In this document: piece by piece, positions 1 to 6,564 of the stretch
Layout: each line of letters starts with the position of its first letter
Numbering within the stretch: the first letter of the stretch is position 1
Assembly: GCA_017629415.1 (NCBI GenBank)
Contig: JAGBXG010000215.1
Coordinates: forward strand, 1 to 6,628
Source of the DNA: Pseudomonadota bacterium
GTDB taxonomy: Bacteria; Myxococcota; Bradymonadia; UBA4248
Length of the DNA: 6,628 nucleotides
Direction of reading: 5' to 3'
Program-made: the position numbers and the translations under genes
Notes under the pieces: generated by a model
Databases searched by the model: none
What the model was told of the DNA's origin: nothing
The model's input: only the letters and a program-made list of their open reading frames with translations

Positions 1-821
1 AAAAGACCGGTAATGGCACCGACTAAGATAATCACACCCAAAATGGCCTTTACAGCTTCTGGAATCGCACCCCAGACTTTTGAGAACGGATCAAGAACCA
101 GCACACATCCAGCCGCGATAGCACAAACGGCAGCCGTTATCCAAAGAATATCCATCCAGTCACGTCCGAGGAGACGCGAATTTTCATCCACATATTCGCG
201 CGAAGGCGGAAAACCGGCTTTGCCAAAACTTTTCTGTCCGAGCAGGAAAATGATGACACCGATGGCCATACCAATAGCTGCGCCTGCAAAACCCACTTTC
301 CAGCCAAAATAATCGGCAAGCGTACCGCAGACAAGCGGGCTGAAGAATGCGCCGACATTGATGCCCATATAGAAAATGGTAAACGCACCGTCACGGCGTG
401 GATCATTGTCTTCGTACAAATTACCGACAATCGTCGAAATATTGGGCTTGAAGAAACCATTGCCTAAAATCAAAAATGCGAGACCATAATACAATGTGCT
501 GGGGAACATCATGAGCATTTCGCCATACATCATGACGAGTCCGCCAATAAAGATGGCCTTGCGAGCCCCCAGATATTTATCTGCTAAAAAGCCGCCGATA
601 AGCGGTGTCAGATAAACAAGACCGGTATAGGTTGCATAGATAGAGAGTGCATTTTCTCGCGTCAGACCTACGCCGCCATCCGTGGTGGCTGCCACCAGAT
701 ACAAGACAAGAATGGCGCGCATGCCGTAGTAGGAGAAACGCTCCATGGCTTCCGTGCCAAATAAATAGTACAAACCTCGGGGATGCCCTTTTTTAGCTGC
801 CCCTACTGATGAATCACTCAA
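1..821 (-). CDS. POT/PTR2-family proton-coupled peptide transporter, N-terminal part (cut by window edge)
   Basis: The minus strand reads open from a TTG at 821 to the window edge (273 codons), so the C-terminal half is missing. It shows the hallmarks of the proton-dependent oligopeptide transporter branch of the MFS, inner-membrane proteins that import di- and tripeptides with protons. The ExxERFxYYG motif in helix 1 (E24, E27, R28, F29, Y31, Y32, G33) is present. So are the GGFLADKYLG loop after helix 2 (76-85), FFKPN in helix 4 (the family's conserved Lys, here K125) and the second PTR2 signature, FTIFYMGINVGAF (147-159). Hydrophobic helices continue to residue 273. Start choice: an in-frame TGA lies at 825-827, the first downstream ATG falls inside the ExxER motif, and GGAG at 829-832 sits 7 bases before the TTG. 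The family is secure; the substrate range cannot be read. Confidence 0.93.
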   Translation of the reverse strand, partial: MSDSSVGAAKKGHPRGLYYLFGTEAMERFSYYGMRAILVLYLVAATTDGGVGLTRENALSIYATYTGLVYLTPLIGGFLADKYLGARKAIFIGGLVMMYGEMLMMFPSTLYYGLAFLILGNGFFKPNISTIVGNLYEDNDPRRDGAFTIFYMGINVGAFFSPLVCGTLADYFGWKVGFAGAAIGMAIGVIIFLLGQKSFGKAGFPPSREYVDENSRLLGRDWMDILWITAAVCAIAAGCVLVLDPFSKVWGAIPEAVKAILGVIILVGAITGL

Positions 822-1097: not shown

Positions 1098-1260
1098 GGG
1101 GGCGTTGCGGGGCGGAGCCACGCATCGGGGGTAGGCGCGTATTGGCGCGCGGCTATGACGGCCCTTACGGGCGCGTCATACGCCATGCGTTGCGCGGACT
1201 ATGTCGGCCTGCTGGGCCTCCATACGCCGCGCAAATAGCGCCGAAGGGGGCGTGGCCCCC
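1098..1260. repeat. GC-rich multi-stem palindromic element (candidate dispersed repeat or structured RNA)
   Basis: Pairings read directly: (a) hairpin TGCG/CGCA (1106-1109 with 1121-1124), stacked through a G/A mismatch on GGC/GCC (1111-1113 with 1117-1119). (b) A closing stem of three blocks: GGCGC 1134-1138 with GCGCC 1238-1242, TATT 1140-1143 with AATA 1234-1237, GCGCG 1145-1149 with CGCGC 1228-1232. (c) Enclosed arm 1, 1151-1184: GGC, TATGACG and GCCC pair with GGGC, CGTCATA and GCC around a TTAC loop, with two single-base bulges. (d) Enclosed arm 2, 1194-1227: GCG/CGC, TATG/CATA and GGCC/GGCC. (e) G5/C5 hairpin, 1246-1260. GC is far above the flanks. Whether it is a REP/MITE-like repeat or a transcribed RNA cannot be told from one copy. 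The strand is undetermined and the outer limits are approximate. Confidence 0.65.
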
Positions 1261-1403: not shown

Positions 1404-2261
1404 ATGCTTTCAGGTCTTCATCAACTTAAACTCCTGCGCGGAACCCCCCCAGCCGAAATTCAACTGCGCAAACGCATTGGCCGCGGTGGTGTCAGTGACC
1501 TATGGATAGCCTCACACGAAGCCGTAGCACACCCATTCATCGTCAAATATTCACGGCATCCTGCCACGCAAAATCCCTATATTCTCGGACAATTTGAACG
1601 TGAGTATGAAGCCTCATGCGCACTGAGCGCCCATGGGCTTGAGCACCTGACAACCTGTGTTTTCGATTTCGATGTCGATGTTTACGAACATCCCTATATC
1701 TTTGAAGAATATTTTCCTTCAAAATCTCTCGATATTTTGATGCCTGTGACTCGGGAATGGCACGTTGTTCAAGATATTTTGGCTAAAACGGCGCAAATTC
1801 TTTCTGAAGTCCATGCCGCCGGCATTGTTCACCGCGATATCAAGCCGGGCAATATTCTCGTCAATGCCAAAGGTGAAGTACGCATTATCGATTTTGCCCT
1901 GAGTACCATTGATGGTCATTGGCATCAATATCATGAAGAAGGCATGGCTCTCGGCACACCTTTGTATATGTCTCCAGAACAGGCTTTCGGACAAAAAATC
2001 ATGCTCACCAGCGCCTGCGACTGGTATTCATTCGGTGTCATGATTTACGAATGGCTGACAGGCAACATGCCGTTCAAAGGGGCTACCGCAAAAGAAACGA
2101 TGCAGATGCATTGCTATGAACCAGCCCCCATGCCCGTCAATACACGCATCTATGGTGCCCCCCAGGCTCTCCCTGAAATCTGTCAGGCATTGCTTTGTAA
2201 AGAACCCAACGCGAGATTTTCTGCCGTCAAACGCCTCAAAACACTTCTCACGCTCTCATAG
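1404..2261 (+). CDS. Stand-alone Hanks-type Ser/Thr protein kinase (DFA variant)
   Basis: A 285-residue soluble protein that is essentially one bacterial eukaryote-like kinase domain, expected to phosphorylate Ser/Thr of cytoplasmic proteins with ATP. Visible landmarks: Gly-rich loop IGRGGVSDLW (25-34), ATP-anchoring Lys K48 in FIVK, probable helix-C Glu E67, catalytic loop HRDIKPGN (143-150; D145, K147, N150), metal-binding D163, activation-segment end GTPLYMSPE (184-192) and helix-F DWYSFG (206-211). The usual DFG reads DFA (163-165), a Gly to Ala change needing one base (GGC to GCC). The metal-binding Asp is kept, so activity is plausible, but the activation-loop hinge may behave differently. 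There is no transmembrane segment or extra sensor domain. The gene converges on the larger membrane kinase, with 59 bases between stop codons. Kinase fold is certain; target unknown. Confidence 0.94.
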   Translation: MLSGLHQLKLLRGTPPAEIQLRKRIGRGGVSDLWIASHEAVAHPFIVKYSRHPATQNPYILGQFEREYEASCALSAHGLEHLTTCVFDFDVDVYEHPYIFEEYFPSKSLDILMPVTREWHVVQDILAKTAQILSEVHAAGIVHRDIKPGNILVNAKGEVRIIDFALSTIDGHWHQYHEEGMALGTPLYMSPEQAFGQKIMLTSACDWYSFGVMIYEWLTGNMPFKGATAKETMQMHCYEPAPMPVNTRIYGAPQALPEICQALLCKEPNARFSAVKRLKTLLTLS

Positions 2262-2320: not shown

Positions 2321-4969
2321 TCATTCATGAGACGTTGCATTCAGAGGGGCCGGACAGTCTTTCAGCACGTAGGCCAAATAGTCGACTTGAGCTTTCGTGC
2401 GCTGATACTGGGGATCAGAGGGGTTAAGAAATGATAAACTTGCCTTTTTGATGCGATACAGCCGTCCAAAAATGATACCATTTTCCAAATCAAAACATTG
2501 ACTTTTCATATACCATTCAATGGATTCATCATAATTTTCTAAAAAGAAATGGGCCTTGGCAATATTCAAAATAACAGTCTTATCCCCCATGGCATAAGCT
2601 TTTTCAGCCCAATAGCGCACACATTCATATTCTTGTTGTGTCTGATGCAGTTCGATCAAATGATGGCATGCAGCAATATCCCCTTCGTTGGCTTTAGATG
2701 TGAAAAGCATGATAACGATATTTTGCCATTCTGATAAAGCTGTTTTATCTGAAAGCTGCGTATAGATTTCGAGGATATGTTTATAAACTTCAAGATCACC
2801 GCTGCGGAAAGCATCGATATAATATTCTACAGCTTTTTGATATTCATTTTTGGCTTTGTAATAACCGCCGAGAATATTCATGGCAAAGGTATTGCCCATG
2901 CTTGCGGCTTTTTTGTAACAAGTGATAGTCGCCGTTTTATTCGATAACCTTGAAAACAGTTTTGCCTGCAAAATATAGGCATCCGAAAATTCCCAGTTTG
3001 TAAGCAAATCAATGAGATTCGAAAGTCCGTTTAATTTCGCCTCCATCGTATGATGAATCTTTGGCGTATAATGATGGATTTCGTATTTCAGTTCATCCTC
3101 ACTTCTCGCACTGAGGAAAACACTCGGAATAAACGTATGATAAACCACATCCTTTGTGTTAAACAGTTCGGCAAAAGGATAAGGATAAGGCATCGCATAT
3201 AATGTGAAATCATCTTGTTGATCCCGTTCCAAACTCCACAGCAAAGGAATGAGATCACCAACTTTATAATGTTTTTCGGGAGCCGTATAAACGGTAGTTT
3301 CACCATAAAATGTATGTTCAAAGAAATTGGCCTTTCGCATACTCATAGGCAAACTGGGTTTAGAAATCTGATATTGATACGTTACGAGAAATCGCGGCTG
3401 TTCCCGAGTCAATACGACAGGCTGTTTTTTTAAAGTGATGCTTTTGGACTGTTGACTATCTGACGGAATATATTGAATCGAGGTGATTTTTCCCACGGTT
3501 TTATGACTAGATGCCACCAAGTGTAAGAGCAATTCTTTATGAATCGCTTTGGATTTCTTGGGTACAGGCAGCTGAGGTTGTTTCGTATGGGAATAAAAAG
3601 ACAATTTTTTGTTGGCAAACAATCCTTCAAGAGGATCATAATTCTGAATGATATGATTTCTGTTCTGAATATAACTTGTGATAAGCGTGGAAAAAATAAA
3701 ACTGATAAAACTGATGACTCCTGTACAAAGCCAAAATACGCCCAGTTCCTCTTTATCAGGCTGAAATATGAAAAAAAATGTCATCGGCAGAATCAGAAAT
3801 GAAGCCAGATAAATAAAGATATGCCTAAGTTTTAATTTATCCTGCTGTTTTTGAAATTTTTGGATATTCTGGAGACTCTGCGTATCATCAGGAATACTAT
3901 TAAGAATATGGCTGAGTTGGCAAACATCTTTTTCAGGATTCAAATTTTGCCATATTTCATAGTTCCCAGGCTGGCATATCGATTCTACAGTTTCAAGCTT
4001 ATATGCAGAATGTTTAAGCAAAAGCTTGAGAAATGATGGAGGACGCTTATCCGCAAGTGATCTAAACTGTGCAATCAGAATATTATAGTCACACAGTCTC
4101 TTTTCGATCGACGGTTCGAGCATTTGACTGATCGTCTGAACAACGGCAGGCGGTATATGACTTAAATAAGGTTCTATAACCAATTTAAAGTCGCACATTT
4201 CGATATCGGCTGGAGAGGTGCCTGAAAGCAGCTGAAGCGCCACCGCCCCAAGCGCATAAATATCGCTGGCCGGCTGAGCCTGTCCCATCAATTGCTCCGG
4301 AGGCATGTAGCCATATGTGCCGGCAACCGTTGAACCGCCTTTTTGAACCTGAGGATTGGCAACTGCTCCAAAATCGATGAGTGTCACGCGATACCGGCCA
4401 TTCTCGGCAGGTGTCAGCATCAGATTGGAAGGCTTGATATCCCGATGAATAATGACAGGCTGATGACTGTGCAGGGCCTGCAATATCCTTAAAATTTGAA
4501 CGATCATGTCATAAATGGCTTCCGCTGAAAATCGATGCTTCCTTTTGATAAGCTTGGCCATCGTTTCGCCTTCTACATATTTTTGTACAATACATACACA
4601 TGGCGAATCACTTTCCAAATCTTCAATATATTCATAGACCGGAGCGACATTTGGAATATTTAAATGAGAAAGCAGCTTTCCTTCACGCTGAAAAAGCTCA
4701 TATTGCTTCCAAGTTTTTACAGAATGCACATTGAGCAATTTGATGGCCACATATTGACCATCTGTTTTGCGTCTGGCTTTCCAAACCTGTCCCTGAGACC
4801 CTTTTCCAAGCTTTTCTATCAGCTCATATTTCGAAGTGACAATATGGGGCGCATCATTCGAAATGGCATGGGATGATAGATTTTCTTGGTTTTGAAGGAC
4901 TTGCTGCGGCATGGAGAGCAGCGGTTTAGGCATGGGGGTTTGTTTGGGCTTGGGAAGACTGGCAGACAT
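2321..4969 (-). CDS. Membrane Ser/Thr protein kinase with DUF3592-like and Sel1/TPR-like domains
   Basis: An 882-residue multidomain kinase. After a Pro/Gln-rich N-terminus (1-47) comes a complete kinase domain (about 48-305): Gly loop LGKGSQGQVW (54-63), K77 in VAIK, helix-C E96, HRDIKPSN (175-182; D177, K179, N182), DFG 199-201, GTYGYMPPE (217-225) and SDIYALG (235-241). A linker ends in KLKLRH before two transmembrane helices (about 384-402 and 409-433). This predicts kinase and C-terminus both in the cytoplasm. Residues about 488-600 resemble DUF3592 (a TVGKITSI opening, then a Tyr-rich strand and YKVGDLIPLLW); this match is tentative. Residues about 663-840 are helical Sel1/TPR-type repeats (CYKKAASMGN, EYYIDAFRSGD, WAEKAYAMGD, WYMKS), a likely partner-binding surface. 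No Shine-Dalgarno precedes the ATG, and M13 or M20 could be alternative starts. It has its own promoter. Kinase call is firm; stimulus and substrate are unknown. Confidence 0.93.
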   Translation of the reverse strand: MSASLPKPKQTPMPKPLLSMPQQVLQNQENLSSHAISNDAPHIVTSKYELIEKLGKGSQGQVWKARRKTDGQYVAIKLLNVHSVKTWKQYELFQREGKLLSHLNIPNVAPVYEYIEDLESDSPCVCIVQKYVEGETMAKLIKRKHRFSAEAIYDMIVQILRILQALHSHQPVIIHRDIKPSNLMLTPAENGRYRVTLIDFGAVANPQVQKGGSTVAGTYGYMPPEQLMGQAQPASDIYALGAVALQLLSGTSPADIEMCDFKLVIEPYLSHIPPAVVQTISQMLEPSIEKRLCDYNILIAQFRSLADKRPPSFLKLLLKHSAYKLETVESICQPGNYEIWQNLNPEKDVCQLSHILNSIPDDTQSLQNIQKFQKQQDKLKLRHIFIYLASFLILPMTFFFIFQPDKEELGVFWLCTGVISFISFIFSTLITSYIQNRNHIIQNYDPLEGLFANKKLSFYSHTKQPQLPVPKKSKAIHKELLLHLVASSHKTVGKITSIQYIPSDSQQSKSITLKKQPVVLTREQPRFLVTYQYQISKPSLPMSMRKANFFEHTFYGETTVYTAPEKHYKVGDLIPLLWSLERDQQDDFTLYAMPYPYPFAELFNTKDVVYHTFIPSVFLSARSEDELKYEIHHYTPKIHHTMEAKLNGLSNLIDLLTNWEFSDAYILQAKLFSRLSNKTATITCYKKAASMGNTFAMNILGGYYKAKNEYQKAVEYYIDAFRSGDLEVYKHILEIYTQLSDKTALSEWQNIVIMLFTSKANEGDIAACHHLIELHQTQQEYECVRYWAEKAYAMGDKTVILNIAKAHFFLENYDESIEWYMKSQCFDLENGIIFGRLYRIKKASLSFLNPSDPQYQRTKAQVDYLAYVLKDCPAPLNATSHE

Positions 4970-5183: not shown

Positions 5184-6425
5184 CTAGAGATTCCATTCGT
5201 CGTCGATATTGCCAAAATCGAGATCGACGAGTGTATTGGCATCAAGTGATGTCAAAGAGGACGCAGCCTCATTAACATCGGGTTCGATAGGTTTCATATT
5301 TGACCCCAGGCTGTTGACGAGATTGCTCAATGATTCATCCTCAAATTCCATGCCGTCCTCAAGTCCGCTGAAACTAAAGGCATTGGAATGAACCGTAGGC
5401 TTAGATGCTTTGAGCTGCGTATTCTCTGCTTCAAGCTGCTGAATTTTTTCCTGAAGTTCGGAAATGGCTTTATCCTTGTGATAGACATCCATCGACGTGC
5501 GGTTACCGCGAGCTTCGAGCGTATGGAATTTTTTAACGATTTCATCAATGGCTTCGTTGCTCGTGGCCAATGCCATAACCGGTTTGTAGTTGGCCTCGTA
5601 TTTCATGAGACGTTTTTCAGCAAGCAGCATCTGAGCGCGAGCAATGAGATAAATTTTATGGTTATTGTCAGCCCGTTTTTTAAATTGAGCTGCCTGACGA
5701 TTTGCCGCATTCAGTTCTTTTTTGACACTCTTGCCGAATTCAGCCACTTCTTTTTTGGCGGCATCCACTTCGTATCTAAAATCGCGTTTCAAAGCAGCCA
5801 GCTCACCGCGAACATCCTTGAGAGAGGCTTGAAGCGAAGCATTTTCACGTTCCAGTGACGCCATCTTTTTCGTATCTTCTTCCGTATGTTCTGTCACATG
5901 GCTTTCGGATTTCTGGGGTTTGACGACGGTTTCATTTTGAGATTCAACCAGCTGTTTTTCCAATGTGCTGATTTTGGCCTTAGCTTCATTTAAAGCAAGA
6001 TTGAGATCGGCATTTTGTTCGCGCATGGAAACGATTTCGCGCTGATCTTCTTCATTGGAAGCAGAATTCGTTTTGATATCTTTGCGGAGAGATTCGTTGT
6101 CCTTAGTTAAACTGTAATTTTTTTCTTTGAGTTTGGCATTGTCGGCTTTCAAAGACCGAATTTTTTCATTCAGCGCATCGACATCCGCAGATTTTGATGA
6201 AACAGCATCCTCATCTTTATTCTTTTTCTTCGTTTTCGTTTCAGATTTGGGTGCCGGTTCGCTTAATTTTTTCTTTAAAAGTTTTATTTCGCCTTCAAGC
6301 TTTTCATTGGCACCTTTAAGCTCGGTGCAAGTTTGTATATATTTGTTGCGTTCGCCGTGCTTCATGATGTTCGAAGCAACGAGAAAGACGACGACAACGG
6401 CCAAAATCCCTAATAACCACTCCAT
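5184..6425 (-). CDS. Membrane-anchored coiled-coil protein with acidic C-terminal tail (unknown function)
   Basis: I do not recognise a named family. The 413-residue product opens with one hydrophobic helix (about 4-20) followed by basic residues (K22, H23, R26, K28), a signal-anchor pattern that, by the positive-inside rule, leaves the bulk in the cytoplasm. Residues about 30-340 are Lys/Glu/Gln-rich with heptad-like Leu spacing, broken by a Lys/Ser/Thr-rich linker (56-82) and a second polar break (164-187). This is a long interrupted coiled coil. A compact segment (about 257-310) may be a helical bundle. The tail (350-413) is strongly acidic and ends DDEWNL. Start choice: the frame extends to an ATG at 6554, but GGAGG at 6433-6437 lies 7 bases before the ATG at 6425, followed at once by the hydrophobic helix. 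The predicted transcript start (about 6530) also excludes the longer form. Its Ser/Thr content and kinase neighbours make it a candidate scaffold or kinase substrate, by inference. Confidence 0.85.
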   Translation of the reverse strand: MEWLLGILAVVVVFLVASNIMKHGERNKYIQTCTELKGANEKLEGEIKLLKKKLSEPAPKSETKTKKKNKDEDAVSSKSADVDALNEKIRSLKADNAKLKEKNYSLTKDNESLRKDIKTNSASNEEDQREIVSMREQNADLNLALNEAKAKISTLEKQLVESQNETVVKPQKSESHVTEHTEEDTKKMASLERENASLQASLKDVRGELAALKRDFRYEVDAAKKEVAEFGKSVKKELNAANRQAAQFKKRADNNHKIYLIARAQMLLAEKRLMKYEANYKPVMALATSNEAIDEIVKKFHTLEARGNRTSMDVYHKDKAISELQEKIQQLEAENTQLKASKPTVHSNAFSFSGLEDGMEFEDESLSNLVNSLGSNMKPIEPDVNEAASSLTSLDANTLVDLDFGNIDDEWNL

Positions 6426-6432
6426 AATATAT

Positions 6433-6437
6433 CCTCC
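6433..6437 (-). promoter_or_regulatory. Strong Shine-Dalgarno site fixing the coiled-coil protein start
   Basis: GGAGG on the minus strand, 7 bases before the ATG at 6425. It selects this start over the ATG at 6554, adding no weight to the 43-residue upstream extension. Confidence 0.8.
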
Positions 6438-6449
6438 AGCAGCATCCCT

Positions 6450-6490
6450 GAAAACGGGGGTGTCCAGTATTTGCCGGCATATCCGTTTTC
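6450..6490 (-). promoter_or_regulatory. Possible leader stem-loop upstream of the coiled-coil gene
   Basis: On the minus strand GAAAACGG (6490-6483) pairs perfectly with CCGTTTTC (6457-6450), an 8-bp stem with a 25-base loop that contains the palindrome TGCCGGCA (6472-6479). It ends 12 bases before the Shine-Dalgarno site, inside the predicted 105-base leader, and could influence translation. It may be incidental. Confidence 0.3.
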
Positions 6491-6536
6491 CCCGTTCCGT
6501 CATGCGCTGTACAAGCAAAGGCACGCCGGCGCGGGG

Positions 6537-6564
6537 GTTATGCCACGAAACCATGACGTGTCAA
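6537..6564 (-). promoter_or_regulatory. Predicted sigma70-type promoter of the coiled-coil gene
   Basis: A consensus -35, TTGACA (6564-6559), and CATAAC (6542-6537) are 16 bases apart on the minus strand. This gives a start near 6530 and a leader of about 105 bases. The -10 is only 4 of 6, so a promoter helped by an activator is possible. Beyond it (6565-6628) I see no gene. The last bases, GGAAGGA on the plus strand, resemble a ribosome binding site for a gene beyond the window, which cannot be confirmed. Confidence 0.5.

Follow-up and report, generated by a model that had tools for sequence, protein, structure and literature searches.

Gene content and base composition

The window, that is the whole stretch of DNA that was analysed, comprises 6628 bases and contains a structured element in the gap between a transporter gene and the first of two protein kinase genes (Table 1). 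The two Ser/Thr kinase genes differ from each other and are arranged tail to tail, the second having weak TPR matches. An earlier note, made from the letters of this DNA, had pointed to a sharp rise in GC content over the element, and this was confirmed using 100-base windows: the GC fraction is 0.72 at 1100–1199 compared with 0.34–0.46 on the left and 0.26–0.41 on the right (0.26–0.46 over both flanks). An open reading frame (962–1312) crosses the element. For its part 1028–1309 no candidate with three shared 5-residue words and no Pfam match was found, and with neither homolog nor domain a coding-sequence reading of the element was rejected.

A search with the transporter returned five close relatives (64–73% amino-acid identity), three of which have MAG titles naming water buffalo rectum, roe deer omasum and dairy cattle colon. 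A composite repeat lies upstream of the transporter gene in three of the six transporter loci (the window, L001 1–120 and L005 about 2597–2760), in differing orientations; none was seen by eye in the 900 bases upstream of the POT gene in L002, L003 and L004. The possibility that the window copy is orthologous to the elements in L001 and L005 was rejected since the orientation relative to the POT gene differs.

Table 1. Features of the window, including the parts of its repeat copy and the grounds for each. For the repeat, the + strand is the strand that carries the bulged G of the outer unit U; A1 and A2 are the alignments of short and large copies.
Feature	Position	Strand	Grounds and remarks
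POT/PTR2-family transporter	3..821	-	Pfam PF00854, E 2.6e-32; incomplete (window edge); 5' end towards repeat
Whole composite repeat, large (cloverleaf) type	1098..1260	+	Alignment A2, 18 copies from 6 of 8 family genomes; covariance model match
Leader GGGGGCGT	1098..1105	+	GGGGCGTT common to A1 copies, found partly by this motif, and to similarity matches
5' hairpin H1, TGCGGGGC / GCCACGCA, loop GGA, one G.A mismatch	1106..1124	+	98.8% of cells paired in A1; 3' side outside search motif
GGGGGTAG, G-run and GTAG tag at foot of outer stem (last G pairs)	1127..1134	+	A1 and A2 copies; demanded by scan, hence conservation partly by selection
Outer U basal stem, 5' side GGCGC	1134..1138	+	Pairs with 1238–1242; both-side changes at several pairs
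Bulged G of U core	1139	+	Other or absent bulge base nearly absent from same sequence
Outer U, TAT and upper stem, 5' side	1140..1149	+	Pairs with 1228–1237; mismatch 1144/1233
Arm 1, inverted U (GGCTAT ... ATA-C-GCC), bulge C1181	1151..1184	-	TAT/ATA in 19 of 19 copies, partly by selection; upper pairs covary
Arm 2, second inverted U (CTAT ... ATA-C-G), bulge C1225, extra A1198 in window	about 1194..1227	-	A2
Outer U, 3' side (ATAG core 1235–1238; basal stem 1238–1242)	1228..1242	+	ATAG, not demanded by scan, in 91 of 107 composites
3' hairpin H3 (GGGGGC GTG GCCCCC)	1246..1260	+	Cells paired: 93.7% (A2), 99.3% (A1); GGGGG..CCCCC demanded by scan, so pairing is selection and not independent evidence
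Ser/Thr protein kinase gene	1404..2261	+	Pfam PF00069, E 3.3e-32; 5' end towards repeat
Long kinase gene, weak TPR matches	2321-4969	-	Pfam
ORF, sub-threshold matches only, mostly coiled-coil type	5184-6554	-	Pfam

Distribution among genomes

The element is similar to many places in the genomes of all five nearest relatives. Matches were obtained in at least 8 of 38 relatives (G001–G008), the other 30 giving none among the matches listed, and several matches lay at contig ends, where repeats in assemblies are likely to fall. A strict pattern for the short form of the composite was found in 8 of the 377 genomes of a phylum sample, again G001–G008, with 32–71 copies each and 380 in total; it gave no match in a reversed control or in the other 369 genomes. 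The strict pattern for the basic unit U, described below, likewise occurred in 8 of 377, and in the family of G002, represented by eight genomes in the collection, in 8 of 8. Plasmids gave short, weak matches only (12 records, best E 0.1), no element matches were found in phages or E. coli, and an exact 24-mer found nothing in viral contigs. The element is thus a copy of a very abundant dispersed repeat restricted to one family. The earlier note had suggested an RNA under selection or else a unit that is repeated or mobile, and a dispersed family with covarying stems is what emerged: the relatives have many copies and the search for a conserved reading frame was negative, the reverse of the outcomes that the note had listed as counting against it.

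Architecture of the composite repeat

Eighty regions chosen around composite matches were fetched (L114–L193; 1,388,556 bases, or 1.389 Mb) and scanned with regular expressions, which yielded 118 cores; the 3' hairpin accompanies 107 of these and the 5' hairpin 90. The scans demanded GGGGGTAG, CGTA and GGGGG..CCCCC, so that the conservation of those letters is partly due to selection. Read on the + strand, a composite consists of GGGGCGT, the hairpin TGCGGGGC..GCCCCGCA, two bases and GGGGGTAG, followed by the basal stem, bulged G, TAT, tip, ATA, G, the other side of the basal stem, CGnA and GGGGGC..GCCCCC. The tag also occurs as GGAG, GCAG and GTCG. In some copies a second unit replaces the 5' hairpin (L125 15351 and L127 15196, both on the - strand), and others have no 5' hairpin.

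The tip varies from 4 to about 150 nt. It is a simple palindrome in short copies, while in large ones it carries two GGCTAT...ATACGCC arms, which are inverted units. In the window copy, too, each of the two arms repeats the outer U in inverted orientation and is nested inside its hairpin, and the closing stem that encloses them is built from the blocks 1134–1138/1238–1242, the bulged G1139, 1140–1143/1234–1237, a mismatch and 1145–1149/1228–1232. The earlier note had drawn the branches; that they repeat a unit with a fixed bulged-G core, the arms being inverted copies of the outer one, goes beyond it. Since the arms of the large copies were selected by CTAT and ATACG, their retention of TAT/ATA is partly a matter of selection.

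Several other features of the composites were noted by eye. The inverted arms of large copies (e.g. L120 9428–9575) often read TAT-n-TCG..GCTC-n-ATA; on the other strand this motif places GA opposite GA beside TAT/ATA, a possible second structural signal. Composites of G001 and G008 (L156 about 12685–12874 and L152 about 6736–6913) have a similar stretch of about 100 nt in the tip, which seems to be a different dispersed repeat lodged within the hairpin; plasmids gave no match to a 141-base query taken from L152. Variants of the palindrome (TA)GAGACGTGTC..GACACGTCTC(TA), or similar ones, occupy the tips in L170 (6181 -), L185 (3854 -), L151 (10152 -), L150 (14484 +) and L005 (about 2597–2760), as if other palindromic repeats insert into the tips of U. 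Upstream of the 5' hairpin there are genome-specific extensions of about 12–25 nt, ATCATGCCGGATCC-like in G006 (L124, L128, L129, L132) and GAATTGTTTGGATT-like in G007 (L176, L177, L180, L181, L184, L185, L186). Some genomes may accordingly have a longer repeated unit.

Evidence for pairing

All pairings drawn in the earlier note are present in the sequence. On RNA folding of 1090–1265 the + strand had z = -2.0, with 5 of 200 shuffles as good, and the - strand z = -4.1, with 0 of 200. The main evidence comes from two alignments. A2 contains the window copy and 18 of 19 selected large copies (L116 19312–19475 was left out), giving 19 aligned copies. In it 95.8% of the cells pair and 13 of 41 pairs show changes on both sides; 59 cells carry double changes, compared with 19.0 +/- 3.3 in shuffled alignments, and none of 500 shuffles reached 59. 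Sliding the partner by 1–3 columns reduced pairing to 34–56%. One of the five measures, the number of further pair types, was not above the shuffles in A2 (110 of 500 reached it). A1 contains 42 of 44 short composites (L164 and L171 were left out), 41 of them distinct; here 97.7% of the cells pair, against 45–56% in the slid controls, and 60 carry double changes, compared with 21.5 after shuffling. The covariation that the earlier note proposed to look for is therefore present, and the multi-branched element that it described is real, being upheld by the compensatory changes in A2.

In the 107 composites the pairing of U was not demanded by the scan. Their three variable basal pairs are Watson-Crick in 85% of cases, against 54% (at most 62%) after shuffling, and in 99 tips the first four pairs are Watson-Crick in 80–94%, compared with a pooled 50% in the shuffles. 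A covariance model made from the short copies of other genomes matched the window at 1099–1180 (39.9 bits, E 3.6e-6) and, weakly, at 1184–1260 (15.6 bits, E 0.044). The first of these matches rests mainly on the 5' hairpin and GGGGGTAG, because the model has no arms and many of the later pairs are non-standard there. The composite is kept by structure rather than by sequence.

The unit U

The basic unit U consists of a basal stem, C, a bulged G, TAT opposite ATA, G and a paired tip; the core is fixed and the stem sequence is free. A search for U found 291 units in the 1.389 Mb of family genomes and one in 664 kb of loci from other genomes. Eleven altered cores, with another bulge base, no bulge or other trinucleotides, each gave 0–6 matches in the same sequence, and a twelfth control motif, the reverse complement of U, gave 290. 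Detection required paired stems, so pairing within the 291-unit set is not independent evidence, and the statements on covariation rest on A1, A2 and the tests on the 107 composites.

U occurs singly, in head-to-tail arrays and inside composites. The GGGGGTAG tag accompanies 83 of the 291 units and 208 have no GTAG. In composites the basal stem has 4–5 bp before the bulge, while 153 of the 291 units have basal stems of 6–10 bp with at most one mismatch. The density in the sample is about 210 per Mb, or approximately one per 4.8 kb. Composites were enriched 2.6-fold in the 80 regions and the strict U subset 0.72-fold (14 units only), so that the densities are estimates; corrected for sampling, about 700–1800 U per genome would be expected, a rough figure based on those 14 strict units.

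The 291 units form 213 clusters, of which 145 are single. In 63 of the 68 multi-unit clusters all units are on one strand, head to tail, and 62 of the 78 gaps inside clusters measure 0–8 nt. These figures bear on the idea that U is an integron-like recombination site, acted on by a tyrosine recombinase. The attC sites of integrons are bulged hairpins with variable terminal structures that are read by shape, and U, with its unpaired base and variable tip, follows the same design. However, most clusters are single, the gaps leave no room for a gene, and by eye the U core is unlike the R-boxes of attC; such an origin is very improbable.

Genomic placement and orientation

Genes were called with a simple longest-ORF procedure, and counts of gene position are accordingly approximate. 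Among the composites for which both neighbours were called, 7 of 82 lie in divergent gaps; among gaps of 150 nt or more, 67 of 307 are divergent. The window copy, situated between a transporter gene on the - strand and a kinase gene on the + strand, is one between divergent genes, and since composites are rare in such gaps its location is unusual. Among the 159 non-coding U clusters, 90 have a gene 3' end no more than 60 nt away and 29 have a 5' end that close; 18 of 107 composites overlap an ORF of this crude caller.

Placement near gene ends raises the question of a role in RNA, in which copies lying in 3' untranslated regions would fold to stop transcription, protect the end of the mRNA or bind a protein. 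Besides the position of the clusters, the orientation with respect to the adjacent gene fits such a role: beside a gene 3' end, 41 composites are opposite to the gene and 13 have the same orientation (41/54, p 0.00018), and for other arrays the numbers are 31 and 15 (31/46, p 0.026). The - strand of the window copy also folds more exceptionally against shuffles than the + strand. In 38 of 89 non-coding arrays without GGGGGTAG at least five of the eight nucleotides just 5' are A, compared with 6% of intergenic 8-mers; on the other strand a GC-rich hairpin then precedes a T-run, which is the layout of an intrinsic terminator. The frequency of the A-run, however, shows no clear dependence on the gene: it is present in 15 of 31 arrays opposite to the gene, 5 of 15 in the same orientation, 15 of 36 far from one and 3 of 7 between two ends. 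The orientation bias is partial, both orientations being common, and 49 of the 107 composites lie more than 60 nt from any gene 3' end; the window copy itself lies between divergent genes. Composites have no T-run past H3 (0 of 80) and at least five A in the eight nucleotides upstream of H1 in only 4 of 80, and their reading as intrinsic terminators was rejected on this account. On the bulged-G strand the bases immediately beyond H3 are A-rich in 36 of 80 composites. Searches of Rfam found nothing at the gathering score in the window and, over 1000–1400, nothing up to E = 1, in keeping with the statement in the earlier note that no known family could be assigned; five U-bearing loci gave only three weak sub-threshold matches. 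On balance an RNA role as the explanation of the repeat is unlikely, though it deserves to be kept in mind.

A bias with respect to replication strand, judged by third-position GC skew, was not found for U (151/291, p 0.56) or for the cores (64/118, p 0.41).

Conservation in place, turnover and probable mobility

Both vertical conservation, with the structure kept, and turnover are seen. In syntenic regions of G003 (L167) and G004 (L134), which are 71–87% identical in blocks of over 400 nt, the same gaps carry U arrays. Paired changes separate the two genomes: at L167 6156 and L134 4555 a basal A-T in one corresponds to C-G in the other, and at L167 16704/16742 and L134 14890/14928 the first pair of the tip has changed between C-G and T-A. 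Orthologous arrays kept with paired changes speak for long vertical residence and selection in place.

These arrays are among the grounds for considering a DNA-level role, in which the repeats, lying beyond genes, would bind gyrase or some other nucleoid protein, as reported for BIMEs, and be retained as sites for the host. The position past genes and the density of some 210 U per Mb would suit it, and passages of two published accounts describe binding of REP/BIME sequences to gyrase, IHF and Pol I (PMC2817692, PMC6006769). Against this, recognition of the structure would have to take place in double-stranded DNA, a form from which hairpins do not normally extrude. Such a role may tentatively be entertained, its probability being well below one half; it is compatible with a REP-like spread, however the copies first spread.

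With respect to turnover, identical 79-nt composites occur on two contigs of G006 (L124 13888–13966 and L129 10060–10138). Their 3' flanks are different and the last 15 or so bases upstream are similar, an arrangement consistent with recent spread. At one orthologous gap (site A), G004 (L004) has a composite without H1 and G003 (L003) has none. A clean empty site could not be claimed here, there being no base-exact junction as the intergenic DNA of G003 and G004 is too diverged. Separately, a 3.1 kb stretch is 99.2% identical between L073 (G004) and L087/L149 (G008), genomes which otherwise differ; either recent transfer or cross-binning of MAG contigs would account for it.

The flanks of 80 composites were compared with 200 shuffles. 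Direct repeats of 4–9 nt were as rare as in shuffled pairs, i.e. there is no target duplication, and outer inverted repeats of 4–9 nt were not in excess. Nor is there a common flank sequence beyond a few bases. In transposition of single-stranded DNA of the IS200/REP kind no target duplication is formed; its absence would be no less expected of copies that never transpose, and the mobility of the repeat is something that we infer. The earlier note had compared the element with REP- and MITE-type repeats. A MITE, mobilized by a DDE transposon with terminal inverted repeats and leaving target duplications, would likewise be a short, non-coding, dispersed and palindromic element. Yet the flanks have neither kind of repeat in excess and no common sequence, and the pairings are internal and covary, so that an origin of this type is scarcely credible. 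Of the two types the REP-like one fits better, because no target duplication is seen.

Candidate partner enzymes

Proteins with a Y1_Tnp domain were sought in the family, giving 14 matches in six of the eight genomes; none was found in G002 and G003, though both carry the repeat. The IS200 cut-off was passed by three of the eight proteins scanned. For L103 (67 bits), L113 (46), L111 (63) and L106 (79.7) the model of the REP-associated transposase was the best but remained below its cut-off of 80. By eye, L109, which is outside the scanned proteins, resembles L106, and L099 and L100 have other hairpins at their ends.

U arrays begin within about 90 nt past the stop codons of L103, L113 and L109 (e.g. 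L103 1635–1760), and the motif of the composite 5' hairpin lies approximately 260 nt upstream of L106, at the contig end (L106 1–60). CGTAT is absent from the 400 nt past the stop of L111, L112 and L106, and U occurs farther downstream of some IS200-type genes (L100, L101, L105). A Y1 or RAYT gene flanked by copies was looked for up to 1.5 kb on each side, and no two-sided case was found in these loci, several of which are cut by contig ends in MAGs that may be incomplete. An autonomous gene enclosed by copies was also sought: of 897 genes, 27 lie between U copies that are no more than 400 nt away on either side, and by eye none of them is transposase-like. As U is so common, its occurrence near RAYT-like genes is suggestive at best; the RAYT-like genes with nearby U arrays or a composite fragment are a possible lead to the partner enzyme.

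Interpretation

The reading that we prefer, with a probability of about 0.6, is that of a REP/BIME-like, non-autonomous element whose basic unit is a bulged-G hairpin and which is probably spread in trans by an enzyme that reads hairpins. A Y1/RAYT-type transposase, or some other enzyme that reads structure, would recognise the single-stranded hairpin through its bulged-G core and GTAG tag. Copies landing just past gene ends would be tolerated, and the tip could be freely remodelled because only the core would be read. The absence of an orientation bias relative to GC skew counts against this explanation, since lagging-strand transposition could give one. The failure to find Y1_Tnp genes in G002 and G003, the orthologous arrays kept with paired changes and the short basal stem weigh on the same side. 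Spread by such an enzyme is inferred, and functions in RNA or DNA topology, though less probable, would be compatible with it.

A bolder proposal, which we regard as doubtful, is that the repeat is defined by shape alone, its bulge being read by a factor across one family, and that it constitutes a class separate from REP/RAYT. Were this true, some nine fixed bases (C-G-TAT/ATA-G, with the G unpaired) would be common to hundreds to over a thousand hairpins per genome, and the factor would build or maintain hairpins with new stems, stack them head to tail and nest them. Most dispersed repeats are recognised by sequence, whereas here near-unrelated stems share one small structural core. Similarity searches alone probably miss many copies, because the stems differ and only the shape links them. 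Two questions are open to test: what reads the bulged hairpin whatever its stem sequence, and whether REP-like repeats can arise or persist without a RAYT.

Comparison with known systems

No description of this repeat was found in the literature searched, most subscription literature lying outside the coverage. Two other kinds of element resemble it in part. Like integron attC, U is a bulged hairpin with a variable tip, but the 80 regions show no cassette arrangement, U being scattered singly or as close dimers. The double-hairpin elements of fungal mitochondria are short, GC-rich and mobile-looking; unlike these, likened here by description and not by sequence, the present repeat is found in a bacterial chromosome, has a fixed bulged-G core and forms composites.

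The closest parallels are with GTAG REPs. As published, these have a GTAG tag and an imperfect GC-rich palindrome, bulged in some families, with complementary changes in the stem, and lie past gene ends (PMC3733652); they are intergenic, present in high copy number and depleted in divergent gaps (Di Nocera et al. 2013, PMC3733652; Nunvar et al. 2010, PMC2817692). The repeat described here also has, in its composites, GTAG beside an imperfect, GC-rich, bulged palindrome, and it shows covarying stems, a high copy number and a position past gene ends, and as a family it is intergenic, near 3' ends and depleted in divergent gaps. Members of the GTAG REP superfamily are expected to carry an unpaired GTAG (or GYAG/GTRG) at one end of the palindrome, to lie between codirectional or convergent genes and to be cleaved at GTAG by a cognate transposase. 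In the present repeat GGGGGTAG is situated at the foot of the outer U, but it was demanded by the scan, lies inside a longer element, has its last G paired and accompanies the minority of U noted above. An RNAMotif rule for REPs requires a basal stem of 7–20 nt, a bulge of 1–3 nt and a second stem (PMC6006769), whereas the basal stem of the composites has 4–5 bp. Tips of 4 to about 150 nt, the 208 of 291 U without GTAG and the extra H1 and G5/C5 hairpins are further differences.

From REP/RAYT systems the repeat differs in that clustered U are mostly head to tail, an arrangement described as absent or under-represented in REPs. A REPtron has a RAYT gene flanked by two inverted copies of the repeat; here no RAYT gene was seen with copies on both sides in the loci fetched, several of them cut by contig ends. 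As in BIME and REPIN mosaics, several palindromic units are combined, with inverted units among them in the large copies of A2. Unlike in those mosaics, two inverted units are nested in the hairpin of a third, giving a multi-branched fold, and spacing and linkers differ; the alternation typical of BIMEs contrasts with the one-stranded, head-to-tail order of 63 of the 68 multi-unit clusters. Since the basal stem is short, most U have no GTAG and no two-sided RAYT gene was found, the repeat is called REP-like and not a member of the REPs: a REP-like variant whose nearest known kind is the GTAG-tagged REP/BIME repeats.
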